DNA of 27,054 nt from a virus: the IMG/VR virus record IMGVR_UViG_3300032296_002536, positions 1-27,054 of that record, one strand, 5' to 3'. Each line of letters starts with the position of its first letter. Positions within the stretch are counted from its first letter, which is position 1. Below the pieces are notes generated by a model. That model saw only the letters and a program-made list of their open reading frames with translations, had not been told where the DNA came from and searched no databases. This document shows positions 5,777 to 21,937 of the stretch, piece by piece. The position numbers were made by a program, and so were the translations under genes.

Positions 5777-8700
5777 ATGCCAGCAGGACCTCGTACTACT
5801 CCGTTCCCTGTAGTAGTACAGTTTAGTGATTCAACAAATCCGTTAATTCCAGTAAAATTGCTGGAATCAAGTTCACTATTAGTCCCAAGTTTATCTGCTG
5901 TAACAGTAAGTGCTACAACTTATTTAAACCTTCCAACTCTTGGAGGAGAAGTTACAAGCATCTATCAACTTGCCAGCACTGGCATACTAGAGTTAACTTC
6001 ATACTCAAGAAGTAATTTTGCAACCACGGGTCAGCTTCAGTCATACGTTCTAACTTCTACTAATAACAATCTAAGTTCGTTAGTAGCAAGCATTCAAACA
6101 TCTACTGTAGGTCTTTCAAGCACTTTAGAATCCCACTTAACATCTGCTGTTCACTGGACAAGATCACAGTTAGATTTTGATTATTTGAATTCTTCGGGAG
6201 ATACAGCCGACGCTGGATTCTACTTGAGTAGCGTTAGCGCAGTAAATCTATCTGCCACAAATTATTATAACCTGCCATCCACAACTCTAGTATGGAAGGA
6301 AGCTCAGGATATAGTTTTGTATGTTCACAATAAAACTACAGCTACAATATTAAAGGGCACGCCTGTAACGATTGTCGCTGGAACTGGCGGGGCAGGAGAA
6401 TTTCCAAGCGTAGAACCTTTATCTTCTGTTAATAATCATGTGCCAGACGCATATGGGCTTTCTAATCACGTTGCTGGGTTAGCACAAGAAACCATATTGG
6501 CTGATGGTGTAGGGCATATTATTATAGAAGGTATACTGGAGGGATATGGCGCAGGGAATCCGTTAAATACTTCAATGTTTGAAGTTGGAGATATGCTTTA
6601 TGTTAGCTCTAATGGACAAATATCAAACCAAAGACCGACTCCCCCTTATGAGATGCACCCAGTAGGGATCGTACTTAGAAAACACGCTGTAAATGGAAAA
6701 ATTATTGTAAAAATTGAAAACGCCCCTGAATTAAATGATATAGTCGGATTTAATTTATCGCAAAGCATACTTGATGGTGACATCATAGCCTACGATCTTA
6801 CGACCAGCACATTTAAGAATGTACAAGCATTAAATATTTCTGGAGCTAGTAAGTTCGGGTCTGTTTCAGCGACAACGTACCTTAATCTTCCAAACTTTGC
6901 AACGACTGCTACGAATGTAACAGCATTTGCAGGCACGGGTGTATTTGAGACTACATCGTATGCAAGAAATACTTACGCTACCACCGCATCCCTTGCAGGG
7001 TATGAGACAACAGCTTACGCTCGTAATAATTACTTAGTAACTTCAGTAAACGTAACCGCACTTAATGGCACTGGAGTATTTGAAACTACAGGGTATGCAA
7101 GAAATACCTATGCTACAACTGCATCTTTAGCAGCATACGAAACTACAGGATATTCTAGAAATAATTACGTTCTAACATCTACAAATAACGCATTAAGCGC
7201 ATCTTATGCTGCCCACTTAGCTTCTGCAACAGTTCACTTTACCGCAGCGTCTTTAACTAGCACTTATGAGACTACAGGTTATGCAAGGAACACTTATGCT
7301 ACGACTGCCCAACTAGGGACATATGAAACAACTGCATACGCTAGAAATAATTATGTTCTAACTTCCACAAACTCTAATCTAAGCTCAACAGTATCAAATC
7401 ACTTAGCGTCTGCTGTTCACTGGAACTTGACCACGTTAAATAGTTATTATTTAAATGCGTCTGGAGATTCAGTAACTGGAGCATTCATCTTTGGAAGCGT
7501 AACAGCTACAACGATTAGTGCTACAAACTTCTCCGGTGCATCGTTAAGCGGATCCCTAAGAGACGTAGCCATAACTACAACACCAACGACTGGGTATGTG
7601 TTAAAATGGAATGGCTCTCGATGGGCACCAGCAGCAGATGACTCTGGAACAGGGGGTGCCTCCGAACCTGGAGGTGGAGAAGGGGATGTTCAGTACAACT
7701 TTGGGGGAGGCTTTGGTGGAGCAGCAGTATTTAATTATAATGAGGCTGCCCAAAAATTAATAGTTCCAAACTTTAGTGCTACGAATATCAGTGCCACAAC
7801 GTACTTTAATTTACCAAGTGTAACAGCGTTAAATGGAACCTCAGTCTTTGAAACAACTGGATACGCTAGGAATACTTATGCTACGACAGCGCAGCTATCA
7901 AACTATGCTTTAACGGCTTCACTTGCTGCATACGAGACAACAGCTTACGCTCGCAACAATTACGTTCTAACATCCACTAACTCAGCTTTAAGCTCCTCTT
8001 ACGATAATCACTTAGCTTCTTCAATCGTACACTTCACCGCAGCGTCTCTTACTAGCACTTACGAAACCACAGGATACGCTAGAAATACTTATGCCACAAC
8101 GGCACAATTAGCTGGTTATGAGACCACTGCATACGCAAGAAATAATTATCTACTAACTTCAGTAAATGTAACTGCTCTAAATGGAACTGGTGTATTTGAG
8201 ACTACCGGATATGCTAGAAATACCTACGCTACAACTGCATCCCTAGCGGCATACGAGACAACTGGGTACGCGCGCAACAACTACGTTCTAACATCTACAA
8301 ATAGTGCATTAAGCTCATCTTATAATGCACACTTAGCATCATCCCTAGTTCACTTTACAGCAGCGTCCCTAACCAGTACCTATGAAACGACAGGGTATGC
8401 CAGAAACACCTATGCGACTACGGCTCAATTAGGGTCTTATGTTTTAACGTCTGTTAACGATGGGTTAAGCTCCTCATACAACAATCACTTAGCCTCCTCG
8501 ATAGTTCACTTCACAGCAGCTTCGTTGACTAGCACTTATGAAACGACTGGCTACGCTAGGGATACTTATGCTACGACTGCCCAGCTAGGTTCTTATGCAC
8601 TAACAGCATCTTTGGGTGCATACGAGACTACGGGGTACGCTCGTAACAACTATGTTTTAACATCTACAAACTCAGCCTTAAGCTCCTCATACAACAATCA

Positions 8701-10756
8701 CTTAGCCTCTGCCTCAGTTCACTTCACAGCAGCTTCACTAACCAGCATTTACGAAACCACAGGGTATGCTAGAAACACTTATGCTACTACGGCAGCATAT
8801 GCAACTACAGCTTCCCTTGCTACCTATGAAACAACTTCGTATGCTAGGAACAACTACGTCTTAACATCTGTAAACTCAAATTTAAGCTCGACTGTATCCA
8901 ATCACTTAGCCTCTGCGGTACACTGGCAGCTATCGACACTAAACAATAATTATGTTAATGCGTCTGGCGACTCTGTAACAGGGAGCTACTATTTCCAAAA
9001 TCTAAGCTCTTTAGCATTCAGTTCTAATATTGTGTCTGCCACTAAAGTATATCCAGCATCAGCAGCTAGAAGAAACTGGGTGTACTTTGGAGACCCCGTT
9101 GATGGATCTTTAACTCAAGCATCTGGTGGAATGTTTTGGTTTAGTGGAAATGCTAGATTAACTGGATTTCCTATTCCATCTGCAACATTATTCACCCATA
9201 GAGTAGCACTGGCAGCAGGCGACACCAAAACCGGAGTATTTTTTGGCGGATTCTCTGCAAATGCTGGGTTAGCTCCACAAGACGATATAAGAGAATATGA
9301 ACCTCCTGAATTTATACCGCTAACGTCTCCAACAAATAATTTAAACTTTATAGATACTTCAGGTGAATTATCTTATACTACAAATATAACATTAACAACA
9401 GATCAAGCTCTTAACGATCAATTAAATGTAGGATCTTTGAGTGCTGAGTTTGTGTATGTTAACTCTAACTTATATGCAAATGATATATCAGCAACTAATT
9501 ATCAAAACTTACCAAGCTTCGCAACTACAGCAACTAATGTAACATCCTTCGCAGGAACCGGAGTCTTTGAAACCACTGCATATGCGAGAACAAATTACTC
9601 TCTTACAAGCCATAATCACAGCTTTTCTGCTCTTAGTGGACTGTCAGATGTTCAAGTAACCTCAACTCCAACCACAAATTATGTATTGAAGTGGAATGGA
9701 TCTAAGTGGGCACCCGCAGTAGATAATACCGGCGGGGGAGAATTACCAAATGCATTTGCAATTATTGAAGATGAATCTGCGAACACTGTAGCAGCAGTGG
9801 GGGAAGATACTGTAAAATTTGTTAGCAGAAATAACGGAATTACGATAACTACTGACAATTCTCAGACTCCACAAGAAGTAATTTTTGAGGTCGCTGAGGC
9901 TGAAGTAATTCATAATAATTTATTTGGATTAACCACCGGAAACCCACACACTCAGTACGCTACATTATCAGGTGCTATATTTACAGGTCAAGTAAAAGCT
10001 CCTTCAATATCGGCTACAGATTACTACAATCTTCCATCAGGCACAGCCCTATGGAATGCCAGTCAGCTAGAGGGTGTAAACGTAACTTCTACAGCCCCAA
10101 CAACGGGCCAAGCCCTTGTATATAATGGATCGGAGTGGCAACCCTCATCTCTTCCCACCGGAGGAGCAGGCAGTACAAGTCCAGGAGGATTAGACAAAAG
10201 TGTTCAGTTTAATAATAATGGATCCTTTTCAGGTACTTCAGATTTCAACTACACTGCTAGTTCACAGACATTAATTGTTCCAACCATAAGTGCCACTACT
10301 TATCAGAATTTACCTAAAGATTGGACATTAGTTTTAAAGACTGCTGATCAAACAACAATAAGCAATACAACTTTAGTTGATGATACTCATTTAAATTTCA
10401 CTATGGAAGCTAATGAAACTTATGCCATAAGACTGGAAGCTTATTTTAATACAAATGCAACTGCTGACTTTAAGTATGGATTCAGGGGAACTCAAGCTGC
10501 AACAGATGTCCACCTAAGAAGAGATGCCATTGTTGGTGGTGGAACTGGCTATACTACGATAGCCATTTCAACTGCCTACAACACAGCGGGAACTGCTCTT
10601 ACTGGAACTGGCACAGATGGATATATTTCAATATCTGGGTTCATAGTAAATGGAGCCAATCCCAGTACCTTCTATTTTACATGGGCGCAGAATACAAGCA
10701 ACGCAACTAACTCCACAGTATTCAAAGGAAGCTACTTAGAGTATTGCAAGGTATAA
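5777..10756 (+). CDS. Long tail fibre protein 1, repetitive
   Basis: At 1659 aa this is the largest gene in the window and probably a trimeric receptor-binding fibre. In order it has: an N-terminal segment resembling that of the 952-aa fibre downstream; a first SVSATTYLNLP-type module; a beta-rich domain at about residues 172-325 with IVLYVHNKT and ILKGTPVTIV, of a kind recurrent in phage fibres; and a dense ETTxYARN repeat array (about residues 385-1060). A unique segment follows (about 1075-1180), then more NGSxW and VQFNNNGSFSG modules. A C-terminal beta-sandwich-like domain starts near DWTLVLKTAD (last about 140 residues) and is the likely tip. Composition is very rich in Thr, Ser, Ala and Asn and poor in Cys. 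The ATG follows AAAGG by eight bases. The next gene begins one base after the stop. Confidence 0.9.
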   Translation: MPAGPRTTPFPVVVQFSDSTNPLIPVKLLESSSLLVPSLSAVTVSATTYLNLPTLGGEVTSIYQLASTGILELTSYSRSNFATTGQLQSYVLTSTNNNLSSLVASIQTSTVGLSSTLESHLTSAVHWTRSQLDFDYLNSSGDTADAGFYLSSVSAVNLSATNYYNLPSTTLVWKEAQDIVLYVHNKTTATILKGTPVTIVAGTGGAGEFPSVEPLSSVNNHVPDAYGLSNHVAGLAQETILADGVGHIIIEGILEGYGAGNPLNTSMFEVGDMLYVSSNGQISNQRPTPPYEMHPVGIVLRKHAVNGKIIVKIENAPELNDIVGFNLSQSILDGDIIAYDLTTSTFKNVQALNISGASKFGSVSATTYLNLPNFATTATNVTAFAGTGVFETTSYARNTYATTASLAGYETTAYARNNYLVTSVNVTALNGTGVFETTGYARNTYATTASLAAYETTGYSRNNYVLTSTNNALSASYAAHLASATVHFTAASLTSTYETTGYARNTYATTAQLGTYETTAYARNNYVLTSTNSNLSSTVSNHLASAVHWNLTTLNSYYLNASGDSVTGAFIFGSVTATTISATNFSGASLSGSLRDVAITTTPTTGYVLKWNGSRWAPAADDSGTGGASEPGGGEGDVQYNFGGGFGGAAVFNYNEAAQKLIVPNFSATNISATTYFNLPSVTALNGTSVFETTGYARNTYATTAQLSNYALTASLAAYETTAYARNNYVLTSTNSALSSSYDNHLASSIVHFTAASLTSTYETTGYARNTYATTAQLAGYETTAYARNNYLLTSVNVTALNGTGVFETTGYARNTYATTASLAAYETTGYARNNYVLTSTNSALSSSYNAHLASSLVHFTAASLTSTYETTGYARNTYATTAQLGSYVLTSVNDGLSSSYNNHLASSIVHFTAASLTSTYETTGYARDTYATTAQLGSYALTASLGAYETTGYARNNYVLTSTNSALSSSYNNHLASASVHFTAASLTSIYETTGYARNTYATTAAYATTASLATYETTSYARNNYVLTSVNSNLSSTVSNHLASAVHWQLSTLNNNYVNASGDSVTGSYYFQNLSSLAFSSNIVSATKVYPASAARRNWVYFGDPVDGSLTQASGGMFWFSGNARLTGFPIPSATLFTHRVALAAGDTKTGVFFGGFSANAGLAPQDDIREYEPPEFIPLTSPTNNLNFIDTSGELSYTTNITLTTDQALNDQLNVGSLSAEFVYVNSNLYANDISATNYQNLPSFATTATNVTSFAGTGVFETTAYARTNYSLTSHNHSFSALSGLSDVQVTSTPTTNYVLKWNGSKWAPAVDNTGGGELPNAFAIIEDESANTVAAVGEDTVKFVSRNNGITITTDNSQTPQEVIFEVAEAEVIHNNLFGLTTGNPHTQYATLSGAIFTGQVKAPSISATDYYNLPSGTALWNASQLEGVNVTSTAPTTGQALVYNGSEWQPSSLPTGGAGSTSPGGLDKSVQFNNNGSFSGTSDFNYTASSQTLIVPTISATTYQNLPKDWTLVLKTADQTTISNTTLVDDTHLNFTMEANETYAIRLEAYFNTNATADFKYGFRGTQAATDVHLRRDAIVGGGTGYTTIAISTAYNTAGTALTGTGTDGYISISGFIVNGANPSTFYFTWAQNTSNATNSTVFKGSYLEYCKV
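6930..8960 (+). repeat. ETT-x-YARN repeat array inside fibre 1
   Basis: This in-frame protein-coding array contains 17 close copies of (Y/F)ETTxY(A/S)R(N/D). They largely alternate between a form ending NTYATTA and a form ending NNYVLTS. The copies are interspersed with NHLASxxVHF and ALNGTGVFETT units and one NFSGASLSGS/NGSRW interruption near 7530-7720. Another copy lies near 9570, and a diverged one occurs near the N-terminus (SYSRSNFATT). Two neighbouring units at 8465 and 8678, 213 nt (71 codons) apart, are almost identical in DNA, while others differ at many third positions. The array probably forms the elongated shaft of the trimeric fibre. Confidence 0.9.
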
Positions 10757-11177: not shown

Positions 11178-14036
11178 ATGACTATTGGACCTAAGCCTAA
11201 TCCTAGACCTCTTATTCTTCACGTTGACAGTGAGACAGGTATTCCTTATAGACTCGCGGAATCAGATAGCTTAACTGTACCTAATTTAACTGTAACTAAT
11301 ATTAATGGTCAAAGCTATACCCCTGGAGTTGGCCCTGGAGGGATAGATCCAACAGCAATAAATGTAACTTCATTACAGGGCACTGGAACCTTTTTTTTAA
11401 CGGCTTTAACTGGTACGTTTGTCTTAACAGCTACCACAGGAGTTTTTGCTACTACAAGTTATGTAAATGATGAATTAGCCGATTATTGTGGCCCACTTAC
11501 AACTCCTGCTCCAGGCGATATTGCTTATTACGATGGTACTTGGCAAAAGTTAACTGTTGGATCAAATGGGCAATATTTAAAAGTAACAGCGGGATTACCA
11601 GATTGGGATGATCTTCCTGGTGGAATATCCACTCCTGTATCTATAGCTGATGGTGGAACTGGGAGAACAACTATGACTGCTGGTAGAGTTCTTTTCTCCA
11701 GGTCTGCTACCTCTGTTGATGATGATTCAAATTTAACATTTGATGGAACAACTCTAGCTACTAATACATTAACTCTTACAACACCTTTAAGTGTTGCTAA
11801 CGGTGGAACCGGAAATACCGCTGTTCCAACCGCTAATCAAGTGATATACTCGGATGGTACAAAATTAGTGTCAGAAGCAGGCTTTGAATATAATCCAACA
11901 ACAAATAAATTTTCCGTATGTGAGGTTGGATTAACAGTAGCTTTAAGTGTTGCTAATGGGGGAACAGGCGGAACAACCCAAGAAACAGCAAGAACTGGAT
12001 TAGGGCTTGGAACTATAGCGACTGAAAATTCTCCACTGCCTGCAAATAAAGGTGGAACTGGGACCACAACTGTCCCAGCTAACGGAAGAGTTCTTATCTC
12101 TGATGGTACAGCTTTTACTTCTGACTCAACTTTAACATTTGATACTGGAACAGATACTTTAAGTACTAATACATTAAATCTTACAAATGCTCTAGCAACT
12201 GCATATGGTGGAACTGGTAGAACATCATTTGTAACTGGTGCAATATATGCTAATTCTACTACTTCAATAGAATCACATCAAGGATTGACAGATTTAGCTG
12301 GGTTTGCTGATAATAATCCAGTTGGAAGTTATCCAAATATTTACCCTAACTATGCAGCAATTCCATTTGTTGGACTTACAGGAAGATATATTAGATTACA
12401 AACTGGAATGTCTATTGGCAATGGAGCAAATATTTATGGAAAGGTTCTAAGACTTTATGACCCTCTAGCCGGATCGACTCCAGATAATCTTGCAGAGCCA
12501 AGATGGGAATTTTTAGATGCTGCTGATGTAGGAGCACAACCAGCAAATGCTCAGTTAGATTTATTAGCTGCTTATGCTGACGCAGCAGCAACTGGAACTT
12601 TAGTTTATTCATATGATGGTAATTGGACTCCTTTGTATGCTAATCAAGCAGATGCTGGAAAAGTATTAAAACTCGTAGCAGGAGAGGGTTTCGTTTCTCC
12701 TACCTGGGGGGTAGATACGTTCACAGATAAAGCAAATATAAATTCAAGCTCTGTTACCCCTTCTGCGGTGTCTGCAACATATCAATATGGATCTCCTTTT
12801 GTATGGCAATATGGATTTGATGCAGGACTTGACGCTCAAGTAACTGCTACAAATGGATGGTGGGGTGGATTGCAGTTAAGCAGTTGGATTGGGGATGCTT
12901 TACTTCCTGAATTAGATAATTTCTACATAACAAATAAAACAGGATATTATCCAAGTGCAAACCTTAGTGTAGTTTCCTTGAGTGCTACAACTGTATCTGC
13001 GACTAATTATTTAAATCTAACAGGCACTTGGGACTTATCCACATTAAATAGTTACTATATTAACGTATCAGGAGACTCAGCCAACGCTGGATTCCATTTC
13101 TCATCTGTAAGTGCTAATGGTATGGTGCTGTCCGCTGCTGCTACGGCAAGTATTCCACTACAAGTTAGATTTGCAAGCGGATCTACAGCTAGCCATGCAG
13201 TATTTGCAAGTGCAGATGGAACTGAAATAGCCAGATTAAATCTACGAGGAACAAATAACTTGTTCCTTGGAAAGAATTCTGGAAATAGCTGGAGTACGGG
13301 ATCTAATAACGTAGCTATAGGTCATCAAGCATCTCAATTCCTGAGCACTGGAAGTGACACTGTAGCGATAGGATCTAATGCTAACTACAACTCTACAACG
13401 TCACAAAGAAATACTTCGATAGGATCTAACGCAGGATCGTATCCAGGAACGTCTACAGATAATGTAAATATTGGTTATTATGCTGGATATACTCAAAAAG
13501 GATCATTCAATGTATCAATAGGTCCAAACGTAAATTATAGTAATTTTGGGTCTGGAAATGTAGGCTTAGGGTATCAAGCTCTAACTCGCAATACCAGTGG
13601 AACAGGTAATATTGGAGTAGGTTATAGGGCAGGCTATGGATTTAGTTCAACTGCATCAAACAATATTGCCATAGGGCAAGATATAAACATAACTGAACCA
13701 ACTACTTTCTCAAATACAATTGTCATTGGAAGCGGTACAAACTCTACAGCTAGCAATCAAACAATAATTGGGCACCCTCAAACTTCATCAACAATTATTA
13801 GAGGTGCTGTGTCTGCTGCAAGTTATGTGAATGCTCCGACTACAAGTGGAGCATTTACTTCTGGAGATATTTTATACTATAATGGCAGTTTTTGGATCAG
13901 TCTACCTAAACCAACAAATCAAGCTGTTCTTATATTTCAATCTGGTGCATCTTATCCATCTTGGATAGAGGCAGATCCAGGGCTTGGAACTTATTCTCTT
14001 CAAAGTATAGATGGAACAATTCAGTGGGCTGGATAG
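11178..14036 (+). CDS. Tail fibre protein 2 with GGTG repeats and YadA-head-like repeats
   Basis: A 952-aa fibre, probably a second or alternative receptor-binding fibre. Its first 40 residues (MTIGPKPNPRPLIL...RLAESDSLTVPNL) parallel the start of fibre 1, suggesting a shared attachment segment. It then has five NGGTG-type repeats (residues about 160-350) of the kind common in phage fibres, and a SYYINVSGDSANAGF module also present in fibre 1. A left-handed-roll-like stretch with repeated N(V/I)AIG and AG motifs (about residues 700-875) resembles YadA/Hep_Hag head repeats. The C-terminus has NGSFW and a terminal LQSIDGTIQWAG. Its 3' end lies 10 bp from the end of a minus-strand gene remnant. 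No Shine-Dalgarno sequence is evident; the leader is AT-rich. Confidence 0.88.
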   Translation: MTIGPKPNPRPLILHVDSETGIPYRLAESDSLTVPNLTVTNINGQSYTPGVGPGGIDPTAINVTSLQGTGTFFLTALTGTFVLTATTGVFATTSYVNDELADYCGPLTTPAPGDIAYYDGTWQKLTVGSNGQYLKVTAGLPDWDDLPGGISTPVSIADGGTGRTTMTAGRVLFSRSATSVDDDSNLTFDGTTLATNTLTLTTPLSVANGGTGNTAVPTANQVIYSDGTKLVSEAGFEYNPTTNKFSVCEVGLTVALSVANGGTGGTTQETARTGLGLGTIATENSPLPANKGGTGTTTVPANGRVLISDGTAFTSDSTLTFDTGTDTLSTNTLNLTNALATAYGGTGRTSFVTGAIYANSTTSIESHQGLTDLAGFADNNPVGSYPNIYPNYAAIPFVGLTGRYIRLQTGMSIGNGANIYGKVLRLYDPLAGSTPDNLAEPRWEFLDAADVGAQPANAQLDLLAAYADAAATGTLVYSYDGNWTPLYANQADAGKVLKLVAGEGFVSPTWGVDTFTDKANINSSSVTPSAVSATYQYGSPFVWQYGFDAGLDAQVTATNGWWGGLQLSSWIGDALLPELDNFYITNKTGYYPSANLSVVSLSATTVSATNYLNLTGTWDLSTLNSYYINVSGDSANAGFHFSSVSANGMVLSAAATASIPLQVRFASGSTASHAVFASADGTEIARLNLRGTNNLFLGKNSGNSWSTGSNNVAIGHQASQFLSTGSDTVAIGSNANYNSTTSQRNTSIGSNAGSYPGTSTDNVNIGYYAGYTQKGSFNVSIGPNVNYSNFGSGNVGLGYQALTRNTSGTGNIGVGYRAGYGFSSTASNNIAIGQDINITEPTTFSNTIVIGSGTNSTASNQTIIGHPQTSSTIIRGAVSAASYVNAPTTSGAFTSGDILYYNGSFWISLPKPTNQAVLIFQSGASYPSWIEADPGLGTYSLQSIDGTIQWAG
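11648..12225 (+). repeat. NGGTG-type fibre repeats
   Basis: Five in-frame copies of a (D/N/K/Y)GGTG(R/N/G/T) motif, each followed by a stretch containing a short VLFS, VIYSDGT or VLISDGT strand. The DNA around them (ggtggaac) recurs with small changes. They belong to the beta-rich shaft of fibre 2. Confidence 0.8.
13255..13805 (+). repeat. YadA/Hep_Hag-like head repeats in fibre 2
   Basis: Successive 14- to 30-residue units carry NNVAIGHQAS, DTVAIGSNA, NTSIGSNAG, NVNIGYYAG, NVSIGPN, NVGLGYQAL, NIGVGYRAG, NIAIGQ, TIVIGSG and TIIGHP. The spacing and the hydrophobic-Gly pairs match the left-handed parallel beta-roll of trimeric autotransporter heads, a trimeric fold that is also used in phage fibres. 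Confidence 0.75.
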
Positions 14037-15763: not shown

Positions 15764-15776
15764 ATATAGGAATTAT

Positions 15777-16520
15777 ATGTCAAACTTAGATAAATTTCAA
15801 CCCGATAGAGACTCCCGTTTAGAAAAGCTTTTTGGTGATATCCCGCTAGAGACAGATATTTTAATTCGTCTGCCCAGCGAAGGGAAGTTTTATACGGGGG
15901 GAAAGGCAGAAGTGCTTGTAAGTCCAATTAAATTTGAAGACGAAAAGCATATGTCAGTTAGCGTTAAGAATGGAGTAAATCCAGTTAATTTCCTACTGTC
16001 AAAGTGCGTCAAGGGGCTGGATCACAATAACCTACTCTTGATAGATAAGATGCTTCTTCTACTTAAGATTAGAGAGATATCCTACGGGGAAGAATATCCA
16101 GCCATGGTTATTTGCCCTAAATGTGATTCTGAAAGTGAAATTAAAATAAATTTAAATAACTTAATAGTTAAGCACATCCCAAATGATATAGAAGACCCTA
16201 GAGAGATAACTCTGCCAAAGCTAGGCAAGAAGGCTAAGGTTAGATTTCCAAGGGTGTCAGATGAGCAGTTTTTAAATAGCCAGGAGCAGATTTACTCTAA
16301 TATTTGGAGGTTCGTAATAGAGCTAGACGGGTCTACGGACCCAGTTTTTATTAGTAAAGCCATCCCAAGAATGCATATCCGAGACGTTAAGTTTATATTA
16401 AATAATATAATGCGTAACGATTTGGGCTTAGATCCAAAGTTTATCCTAGAGTGCGGAGTATGCGGAGGGGAGTCGGAAATCACCGTTCCAGTTAACGAAA
16501 ATTTTTTTTCAGTGACCTAA
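15777..16520 (+). CDS. T4 gp26/gp51-family baseplate hub assembly protein, short form
   Basis: The 247-aa protein matches the T4 baseplate protein family that includes hub protein gp26 and hub assembly factor gp51 (249 aa in T4). Visible signatures are the early RLPSEGKFY segment, the helical KMLLLLKIREISYGEEYP stretch, and two CxxC pairs, CPKC (113-116) and CGVC (226-229), which can form a zinc ribbon. The protein would act in hub or tail assembly and may be a catalyst rather than a virion part. The ATG follows ATAGGA by a few bases. Near the 3' end a run of eight T residues lies where a -1 frame opens, so ribosomes probably make a second, longer product (see 16496-16696). The short form stops at 16518-16520. 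Confidence 0.85.
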   Translation: MSNLDKFQPDRDSRLEKLFGDIPLETDILIRLPSEGKFYTGGKAEVLVSPIKFEDEKHMSVSVKNGVNPVNFLLSKCVKGLDHNNLLLIDKMLLLLKIREISYGEEYPAMVICPKCDSESEIKINLNNLIVKHIPNDIEDPREITLPKLGKKAKVRFPRVSDEQFLNSQEQIYSNIWRFVIELDGSTDPVFISKAIPRMHIRDVKFILNNIMRNDLGLDPKFILECGVCGGESEITVPVNENFFSVT

Positions 16521-16696
16521 CTGAAAAGATAAATATAGAAGACCTCCTTCTAGAAGCCTACATATTGGTAAGTAAATGCCATTTTACTTACCAGGATGTT
16601 AGAGTTATGACAAAGCTCGAAAGAGCAGTGTTCATAAAATTGTATACTAGGGATTTGGAAGCTCAGAAAAATGCTATTGAACAACATAAAAATTAG
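16496..16696 (+). CDS. Frameshift extension of the gp26/51-like protein
   Basis: The -1 frame is open from just after a TAA at 16493 to a TAG at 16694. It has no ATG until 16607. After slipping, the protein would continue FSDLTEKINIEDLLLEAY and on to LVSKCHFTYQDVRVMTKLER, ending EQHKN, about 60 added residues. This helical segment with FTYQDV and a following ERAxFIKLY pattern resembles the C-terminal parts of phage tail and baseplate assembly chaperones. Translation as a separate small protein from ATG 16607 would leave only 29 codons and waste the conserved-looking upstream part, so extension by frameshifting is preferred. The following gene starts inside it at 16671 (26-bp overlap). The region is otherwise an unexplained 150-bp gap in a genome with almost none. 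Confidence 0.72.
   Translation, partial: RKFFFSDLTEKINIEDLLLEAYILVSKCHFTYQDVRVMTKLERAVFIKLYTRDLEAQKNAIEQHKN
16502..16509 (+). promoter_or_regulatory. Putative -1 ribosomal frameshift site (T8) with overlapping hairpin
   Basis: In frame 0 the codons are AAT TTT TTT TCA, giving the slippery heptamer T TTT TTT, where both tRNAs re-pair perfectly after a -1 slip. The -1 frame has a stop at 16493-16495, so the site falls in a 24-nt overlap bounded by that stop and the zero-frame stop at 16518. TTTTCAGT (16506-16513) pairs with ACTGAAAA (16520-16527) around a 6-nt loop. This is an unusual position for a stimulator, since it overlaps the slip site. Confidence 0.7.
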
Positions 16697-17618
16697 TGAT
16701 CGGCACAATCGCCCAGCAGTCCTAGAGAAGGTGGGATTGCAGGCTATGTTCTTAGTTGATGGTCAGTATGCTGACCCCTATCAAATAAGTGCCGTAACTA
16801 TCTATTCAAGAACAGCAAATTTATCCCCCAGCACAGTTCTAGATTCAACTACTCAGTTGCTAGACTCTGACTCCAGCGGCGCGATAAAGATGAACTTCTG
16901 CAATTCATCTGTATACACTAGCAGCGTTGCATTTGATGCCTCAAATTACACTGGCGGCCAGACCGCTAGCGGAATTTACCGTACAGGCGTCGGAAGATAT
17001 GTCGTTGTGCTAGACGGAACTGTTACGTTAATAGGTAAGAACAACCTATTCGGTCTTGATTCAGCTATCCAAAACTCTGCTGCAAATACTGGCGACTATA
17101 TTGATGTTTGGACAATCAAGATGGCTGAAGGGTCAGACCTTCAGGTAGTGATTAATGATTTCACCCTGCGAAAGGGTGGATTCACGGTAATCACCGAGCC
17201 TTTGATGTTGAAGGCTAAGTCGAGATTGATCAACAACAAAGTAACACTTGGATCAAAAGTCGATATCAAGATTGGAACCAACATCGCTGTTGAGAACACA
17301 ATCATTGATGACGGAATAAAGAACTTACTCCGCGACAACGTAATAACCAGCGGCTCTGTTGAGATTGTTAAAATCAACGAGGCTGCCAACCTTCCTGCTA
17401 AGGTTACAGTTTCATCATTCGCTCAAACATCTGGCTTAACAACCATGTCAGCGGACAACGTGATGATTCTTACCTGGGACACCGCCACACTATCTACTCA
17501 CCCTGAAGTGCTTGCTGGCAACTTTGATTCCACGCGCGGGGTGTACGCTATCAGAGCTAAGTACAGTCTATTCAACGAAGTGTTGATTACAGATCCAATG
17601 TACTTAACCCTGACATAA
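16671..17618 (+). CDS. Virion-like structural protein, unknown
   Basis: The 315-aa product has no enzyme motif. It is beta-rich with many Thr, Ser, Val and Asn residues and few charges in its first half, as expected of a phage structural protein. Segments such as GVGRYVVVLDGTVTLIG and LMLKAKSRLINNKVTLGSKV look like beta-sandwich or tube-like strands. Its ATG overlaps the frameshift extension by 26 bp, so it is probably translated in series with the baseplate assembly gene, and a tail or baseplate role is inferred. GGAAG upstream may serve as the ribosome-binding site. Its 3' end overlaps the convergent primase gene by 32 bp. Family unknown to me. Confidence 0.7.
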   Translation: MLLNNIKISDRHNRPAVLEKVGLQAMFLVDGQYADPYQISAVTIYSRTANLSPSTVLDSTTQLLDSDSSGAIKMNFCNSSVYTSSVAFDASNYTGGQTASGIYRTGVGRYVVVLDGTVTLIGKNNLFGLDSAIQNSAANTGDYIDVWTIKMAEGSDLQVVINDFTLRKGGFTVITEPLMLKAKSRLINNKVTLGSKVDIKIGTNIAVENTIIDDGIKNLLRDNVITSGSVEIVKINEAANLPAKVTVSSFAQTSGLTTMSADNVMILTWDTATLSTHPEVLAGNFDSTRGVYAIRAKYSLFNEVLITDPMYLTLT

Positions 17619-20188: not shown

Positions 20189-21937
20189 ATGGCTAGAGTA
20201 GGCTCCCAAGCAGTCAATGATTTAACAGACGAGCTTAAAAAGCTTTCAAAGATGTCTCAAGACCATCATAAAACTTTCAAAGGTTTTATGAGATTGTTCG
20301 GTCATTTTACTAAAAACTCTCAGTCATTCTTTAGAAGTTTTCAATCAGGTGGTGGACCTGGGGGGCCTGGGGGTGGAGGTGGGGGAGGTGGGGGAGGCGG
20401 TAGAGGTGGTGGAGGTGGTGGAGGTGGAGGCGGCGGGGGCGGCGGGGGTGGCGGGCTTGGCGGTGGCAATGATGATTCTAGACGTAGGGGATTTATTGAG
20501 GGGGTCATGCAGAGGACCGCTGGAACGGTTATCCAAGCTATTAAAACAATGGATGAAGTGCAAGTTCGTGCGATGGCAACGAACACATCCTTATCCAGAC
20601 TAGAATCACAACTCCCAGATGTTGGGATTAGAATTTCTACGTTAGCTAATGAAATCTTAGATTTTAGAGAAATGGGAGTTAGGAATCTTAGTGATTCAAC
20701 TCTAAAATTAGTTGGAACAATGAAACTGACTGGGCAGAGCACAGCATCTCTTCAGAAGTTTATTGGTAAAACTTCTATAGCATTGAATATGAACACCCGA
20801 GAAATTCAAGGCATGACAGCAGAGCTTGGTAAGACCGCAGTTGCTTATGGAATGAGCCAAGAAAAAATGTTTGATGTGGCTAGTACTCTTGCTGAGTCAT
20901 TAAAAATGTCTACAGTGTTTGGAAAGGGACAAACCACGACCGAGGCATTTGCAGAGATTGGTGCTTCCTTGGGCGATAGATTAACCTCAGAGCTATCTGT
21001 TGTTGGAGAGTTTCTAACTGGCGTTGGACAAGAATCTGCTGCTTTATTTGCAGGAGTAATTAACAATCAAAACAAATTCTTGATGGCTTCAAAAGAAGAG
21101 CAAAAGATGTTGATTAAAGATACGGTCAACACTTACATGAGAACTTTTGAAGCACAGACAAGAGGGATTGCTCCTACATCAGGTGGAAAGAGGCAAGTAC
21201 AGAATGTAATTGAGCGAATGGGTGGAATGCAAGTCTTTGAAGCGATGCGTGCAACCCAAAAAGGTTTTGAGGATGCTGTAACTGCAACTAAAGAAAATAC
21301 ACAAGGTTTGTTTTCTCTTAAAAGCATGGAAGAGAAATACATTCAATCAATTGAAAAATCTGCTGCTGCTCTAACAATAATTTCAGAAAACATTCCTAGA
21401 ACCGCAGCCCAAAATGTTGCGGGGGTAGCGGGAACTTTAGCTACAGGTGCGGGCATTGCTGGACTTGCGACTAACATTGGAACAAAAATAGCTCAGAGCA
21501 GAGGAGTTGCAGCAGCGTTAACTAGAGTTGCACCTGGATTAGCTGCGCGAATAGCTGCCCGAGCAGCCGCTGGAGCGGCGATAGGAAGTGTATTGCCTGG
21601 AATAGGAACTCTCATAGGTGCTGTCGGTGGTGTAGCGACCGCTGTTTGGGCTGGGGCTGAAATACTAGATGCAATGAAGCCCGATATAAAAGCCACTGCT
21701 GACCAAACTGCTAACATACCACCAAAACCCACAACCACTGCACCTGACCCTCAAAGACCAATAGGTATCTTAGATAGCTTGAACATGATGGTTAAATCTT
21801 TAACTCCTCAGGTGGATACTACAAATAAAGCTGGTGTGGATGTTCAGAAACAAGCTCTTGGAGTCTTAACCCAAATAAATGATAATCTGTCTAACATGAG
21901 AAGAGACCAGCCGTTAGCCATGAAGTTAAAGTACTAA
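20189..21937 (+). CDS. Tape-measure-like tail protein (T4 gp29 candidate)
   Basis: The 582-aa product is close in length to T4 gp29 (590 aa), the tape measure protein. It has a helical start, then a long Gly-rich linker (residues about 54-93, nearly pure Gly). A helical region with regular Ala/Met/Gln/Glu heptad-like spacing spans about 100-400, followed by two hydrophobic Gly/Ala segments (about 408-430 and 460-492) suited to membrane insertion. The C-terminus is short, Pro/Thr-rich and then helical. Helical body plus membrane-capable segments and its place directly before a tube-cap gene fit a tape measure. Fine sequence homology to gp29 is not something I can confirm by eye. GAGG nine bases before the ATG is one of the better ribosome-binding sites here. 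Confidence 0.65.
   Translation: MARVGSQAVNDLTDELKKLSKMSQDHHKTFKGFMRLFGHFTKNSQSFFRSFQSGGGPGGPGGGGGGGGGGGRGGGGGGGGGGGGGGGGGLGGGNDDSRRRGFIEGVMQRTAGTVIQAIKTMDEVQVRAMATNTSLSRLESQLPDVGIRISTLANEILDFREMGVRNLSDSTLKLVGTMKLTGQSTASLQKFIGKTSIALNMNTREIQGMTAELGKTAVAYGMSQEKMFDVASTLAESLKMSTVFGKGQTTTEAFAEIGASLGDRLTSELSVVGEFLTGVGQESAALFAGVINNQNKFLMASKEEQKMLIKDTVNTYMRTFEAQTRGIAPTSGGKRQVQNVIERMGGMQVFEAMRATQKGFEDAVTATKENTQGLFSLKSMEEKYIQSIEKSAAALTIISENIPRTAAQNVAGVAGTLATGAGIAGLATNIGTKIAQSRGVAAALTRVAPGLAARIAARAAAGAAIGSVLPGIGTLIGAVGGVATAVWAGAEILDAMKPDIKATADQTANIPPKPTTTAPDPQRPIGILDSLNMMVKSLTPQVDTTNKAGVDVQKQALGVLTQINDNLSNMRRDQPLAMKLKY
20345..20470 (+). repeat. Poly-glycine, G-rich low-complexity tract
   Basis: About 40 codons are almost all GGN, with many runs of four to six G residues on the coding strand. 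The complementary C-rich strand opens long spurious proline frames. The tract stands out sharply from the AT-rich surroundings and can in principle form G-quadruplexes in DNA and mRNA. Confidence 0.9.

Follow-up and report, generated by a model that had tools for sequence, protein, structure and literature searches.

According to PMC5009743, the low-level frameshift between genes G and T of phage lambda is conserved widely, with T4 as the exception. For T4-like phages, tail assembly chaperones (TACs) were assigned by Vladimirov, Gautam and Davidson (2022, Virology 566:9-15), as that work is cited in PMC10885494 and PMC12846349; the latter credits to it the poly-T -1 sites in T4-like TAC-N genes, and the former the observation that some T4-like phages have one short gene and one longer, fused gene. 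For decades the T4 proteins gp26 and gp51 themselves have been listed as hub proteins, or as chaperones whose action is unknown. In its abstract, the 2022 study reportedly mentions T4 genes 26 and 51 and states that several T4-like groups retain frameshifting. Another described case is that of the TACs of the Vandenendeviridae and Andersonviridae, with a GTTTTT slip site and a -1 ORF that is open in every genome (PMC12846349).

The gene studied here lies in a 27,054-nt stretch of viral DNA, referred to in its entirety as the window. Judged by comparison with its relatives, it very probably encodes the tail assembly chaperone of a phage of the T4 superfamily, with a -1 slip on T_TTT_TTT giving a 247-aa short and a 306-aa long form. 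As far as the T4-like TAC-N/TAC-NC proteins (Vladimirov 2022; T4 genes 26 and 51) are described in the papers citing that work, the locus shares with them the PF12322 family, the short and long forms, and the poly-T -1 site; T4 itself has two paralogous genes, whereas the window has one gene in two frames. The original prediction knew of no report for this T4-type family, but the idea appeared in print in 2022 (Vladimirov et al., via PMC10885494 and PMC12846349), and since T4-like TACs with poly-T -1 sites are, on the testimony of these two papers, already on record, the window represents a new deep group of known frameshifted chaperones. With the Vandenendeviridae and Andersonviridae, which are other phage families, it has in common a poly-T run for a -1 shift where TAC-N ends and a -1 ORF open throughout its relatives. 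Compared with lambda gpG/gpGT, its N-domain is larger and carries two CxxC pairs. Lambda slips on a heptamer of the GGG AAA G type, unlike T_TTT_TTT of the window.

Results

The ORF of the predicted short form (TAC-N, gp26-like; 247 aa) occupies positions 15777-16520 of the plus strand, with an AGGA Shine-Dalgarno-like sequence at 15768-15771 (+), 5 nt before its ATG. Its 3' end reads, in zero-frame codons, AAT TTT TTT TCA GTG ACC TAA, the stop being TAA 16518-16520. In the -1 frame, a TAA at 16493-16495 is followed by an open stretch over 16496-16693, which TAG 16694-16696 closes; at the frequency with which stops occur in this frame within the gene, a clear -1 frame of 57 codons would arise by chance with a p of about 4e-4. 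A T8 run is present at 16502-16509, within which the zero-frame codons define the canonical heptamer as T_TTT_TTT (16502-16508, +), the proposed site of a tandem -1 slippage of tRNA-Phe. Joining of the frames there would give a long form of 306 aa (244 + 62), with base 16508 read twice and a gp51-like C-terminal domain of 62 aa (TAC-C; 16508-16693, +), recognized by its phrog_634 match and its alignment with relatives. All the coordinates first given for the end of the 247-aa frame, the limits of the -1 frame, and the T8 run proved correct when the sequence was read again.

The 247-aa protein matched PF12322 (T4_baseplate) with 57.7 bits against a cut-off of 24.5 (E = 1.8e-15) and phrog_150 ('baseplate hub') with E = 9.9e-18, and PF12322 was matched by all 31 relatives scanned. 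The early assignment to the gp26/51 family thus stands, while the term 'baseplate gene' used with it is an inherited annotation, for which tail assembly chaperone is a better fit. T4 gp26 (208 aa) and gp51 (249 aa), products of divergently transcribed neighbouring genes, both match PF12322 and gp51 additionally matches phrog_634; as judged from these profiles, the two are paralogues within the PF12322 family and gp51 is the long form. Among the phrogs profiles, 'baseplate hub assembly catalyst' (gp51) was weakly matched by the -1 frame of the window. The window's own C-domain matched phrog_634 weakly (E = 0.0095); 23 of 33 C-domains of the family matched that profile when each was scanned singly, and in a profile comparison the -1 domain aligned on gp51 residues 205-247 with E = 0.0008 at a probability of only 25%. 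From the gp26/gp51 and phrog_634 matches we infer a likeness to gp26 for the short product and to gp51 for the frameshift product; homology to a short gp26 and a long gp51 is also what characterizes the T4-like TACs. PF10109 (Phage_TAC_7) was matched by one relative. The AF2 model of the short form had a pLDDT of 84 and gave no significant match to the PDB in Foldseek, the HK97 chaperone 2ob9 appearing only below significance (E = 2.2). Sequence searches of the PDB returned nothing relevant, a tblastn search of named phages with the C-domain yielded matches at chance level only, and a scan of genome contigs found a single relative.

The two CxxC pairs of the 247-aa protein, at residues 113-116 and 226-229 (C113/C116 and C226/C229), are invariant across the window's branch, which suggests a zinc-binding site in the chaperone. 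This branch is deep and uncultivated, at most about 29% identical to the named phages found, and the portal protein of the window is at most about 35% identical to those of named phages, which marks the window as a distant T4-type phage.

The gene of SP-15 and LIS04 is flanked by the tail tube gene and by one whose protein matches tape measure families, the classic place of a TAC. In the window a candidate tape measure protein, the presumed client, is encoded at 20189-21937 (+; phrog_794 tail length tape measure, E = 2.2e-4), about 3.5 kb downstream of the chaperone gene and not adjoining it. The homology to gp26/gp51, together with the gene position in SP-15 and LIS04, points to a tail assembly chaperone that is produced in a short and a long form. 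Elsewhere in the window, 5777-10756 and 11178-14036 encode very long Thr/Ser/Asn-rich proteins of 1659 and 952 aa, the former with ETTGYARNTYATT-type repeats; both are probably fibre-like structural proteins.

A search with the short protein, blind to frame, yielded nine close relatives, and all nine had GAAAATTTTTTTTC and a -1 ORF of matching length. No other stretch of the gene is invariant over as many nucleotides as these 14 (16497-16510, +) when the window and the close relatives are compared. A profile search gave 80 related IMG/VR loci with 35-100% protein identity; N NNT TTT TTY was present at the gene end in all 80, and in all 80 the -1 frame was open for 51-61 codons beyond the zero-frame stop. 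On this conservation of heptamer and -1 ORF, the family would make slip-joined short and long forms sharing their N-terminus, as does the lambda-type G/GT chaperone. The first codon of the site ended in T and the first Phe codon was TTT in 67 of 67 distinct proteins, which are not phylogenetically independent; elsewhere in the same genes, TTT served for 351 of 468 Phe and AAT for 582 of 844 Asn. T_TTT_TTY with a -1 extension was also found in the named T4-type phages phiAS5, LG08, VmeM-32, and P-SSM5.

Runs of about T8 can slip polymerases, and the window carries T8, so that the long form could be the product of transcriptional slippage of RNA polymerase instead of a ribosomal event. The run length, however, was T8 in only 19 of the 71 distinct loci, compared with T7 in 13 and T6, followed by C, in 39. 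Since all three lengths occur, the conserved unit is the ribosomal heptamer and not a long homopolymer: the frame-phased NNT TTT TTY is kept and the length of the run is not, which makes polymerase slippage improbable. Homopolymer runs are also prone to sequencing errors, and an error in the T run had been named at the outset as a way in which the two frames might have been split. The same break turned out to be present in all 80 independent contigs and in the named isolates, with T6C, T7, and T8 runs alike, which excludes such an error in the run.

The -1 frame beyond the zero-frame stop bore 741, 208, and 1105 substitutions at its codon positions 1, 2, and 3, respectively, in 11 close sequences, and its dN/dS between the window and close sequences was 0.06-0.24. 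By these measures the -1 frame evolves as protein and is under purifying selection, which speaks against a decayed in-frame fusion gene; such decay, or a sequencing or assembly error, is hardly conceivable as the source of the arrangement. The 62-aa domain is thus protein-like, as had been thought of the approximately 60 added residues, and the aligned C-domains share LxxLLLEAYILV...FTYxDVxxMTRxERxxF.

The -1 frame could also be a separate, translationally coupled gene, like the small 'gp51' annotated in cyanophages, and P-SSM5, phiAS5, and Pseudomonas phage Cygsa01 are indeed annotated with a small gp51 gene of their own. As expected from the window, where the frame lacks an early start, an ATG in the -1 frame, either upstream or no more than 20 codons beyond the slip site, was found in only 7 of the 71 distinct loci; a start preceded by a Shine-Dalgarno-like motif was found there in 2 of 71, as opposed to 64 of 71 at the gene's own start. 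Separate start codons with ribosome-binding sites were therefore not a feature of these homologues, separate initiation of the -1 product is unlikely on this count, and a separate gene would have no need of an invariant NNT TTT TTY. We consider a coupled gene very improbable, more so than polymerase slippage, and a frameshift joining the two parts remains the preferred reading. In P-SSM5 and phiAS5 the tiny 'gp51 hub assembly catalyst' genes (L023:3693-3866 and L027:3762-3884) are the shifted-frame parts, the junctions read AGT TTT TTC and GAT TTT TTC, and the -1 frames are open; the 'gp51' next to gp26 in this cyanophage and this Aeromonas phage is probably a misannotated fragment of a frameshifted gene. 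The C-part of Cygsa01 (L026:3309-3482) begins at TAATG, a junction that lacks a good heptamer, and perhaps this chaperone is a truly split version, as some phages may have.

No stimulator at the usual distance of 5-9 nt past the slip site was conserved among the relatives compared. A stable 10-bp hairpin, GTAAGTAAA...TTTACTTAC (16567-16592, +), lies about 58 nt past the slip site, inside the -1 coding region, in a stretch with a folding z of -5.4 in the window. It is kept in close relatives, with 96.4% of cells paired and one compensatory change, and its covariation did not rise above that of shuffles (54/500); it may have a putative role in frameshifting. A stimulatory structure directly past the slip site was rejected, as the strong fold of the window is mostly that of the distant hairpin, with the covariation just given. 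The Shine-Dalgarno-like GGAGGGGAG, about 30 nt upstream of the slip site, was also discarded as a stimulator, as it is not kept in the consensus of relatives.

In a sister branch of the SP-15 type (loci L011, L012, L013, L015, and L099-L134), the +1 and not the -1 frame was open, for 42-90 codons beyond the stop, at all 30 readable loci. The site is mostly TTY TTT CGT, while a minor type ends AAT CCC AGT, and L113 and L114 had no clear shift site. Among 31 sequences counted, TTT_C was present in 23 and TTT_CGT in 17; CGT accounted for only 45 of the 337 Arg codons elsewhere in the genes of this branch. Bacteria are known to be prone to +1 shifts on the tetranucleotide UUU_Ynn, and the site of influenza A reads UCC_UUU_CGU (PMC5009743). 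Set beside this PA-X site, the SP-15-type branch has the UUU_CGU codons and the +1 direction in common with it, in unrelated genes and by convergence. A -2 shift would be formally possible at some T6 sites of the branch, but not at TTC TTT CGT. When 53 sequences were placed on a tree, they clustered almost perfectly by decoding type, with 4 changes versus 19.4 in shuffles; LR756511 (-1) was nested near the +1 branch, and T4 gp26 and gp51 were joined (98/82) on long branches. These data leave us somewhat short of persuaded, though not far from it, that a single chaperone family shifts at the same place in different directions, by -1 on T_TTT_TTY in the window's branch and several named T4-type phages and by +1, mostly on TTT_CGT, in the SP-15 branch, with two genes in T4, and that the +1 class is previously unreported; a literature search of limited extent found no +1 class of T4-type chaperone. 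If the direction does differ between branches, selection would preserve the production of two forms even as one decoding route replaces another.

Discussion

Both frames and the slip site are conserved at this locus, the -1 frame is under selection at the protein level, and both parts are homologous to gp26/gp51. The programmed -1 frameshift with the logic of lambda G/GT, as originally predicted, is thus strongly supported by comparative sequence. We infer from it the slippage itself, some efficiency of slippage, and a chaperone activity, which would be combined as follows. Most ribosomes would stop at 16520 and release the 247-aa short form, while a minority, whose P and A sites each hold a tRNA-Phe on T_TTT_TTT, would slip back by one base and read 62 further residues in the -1 frame to give the 306-aa long form. 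If the two forms work as lambda gpG and gpGT do, the N-domain common to both would coat the tape measure protein, while tail-tube subunits would be recruited by the C-domain, present only on the rare long form. T4 would produce the same short form from gene 26 and the long form from its paralogue, gene 51.

With the locus and its relatives, the frameshifted T4-type chaperones gain a large uncultivated group. These sequences also support the view that T4 gp26 and gp51 represent one chaperone, the former in its short and the latter in its long form. The +1 sister branch, if true, would provide a direct test of how the direction of a shift is exchanged while its product is kept.
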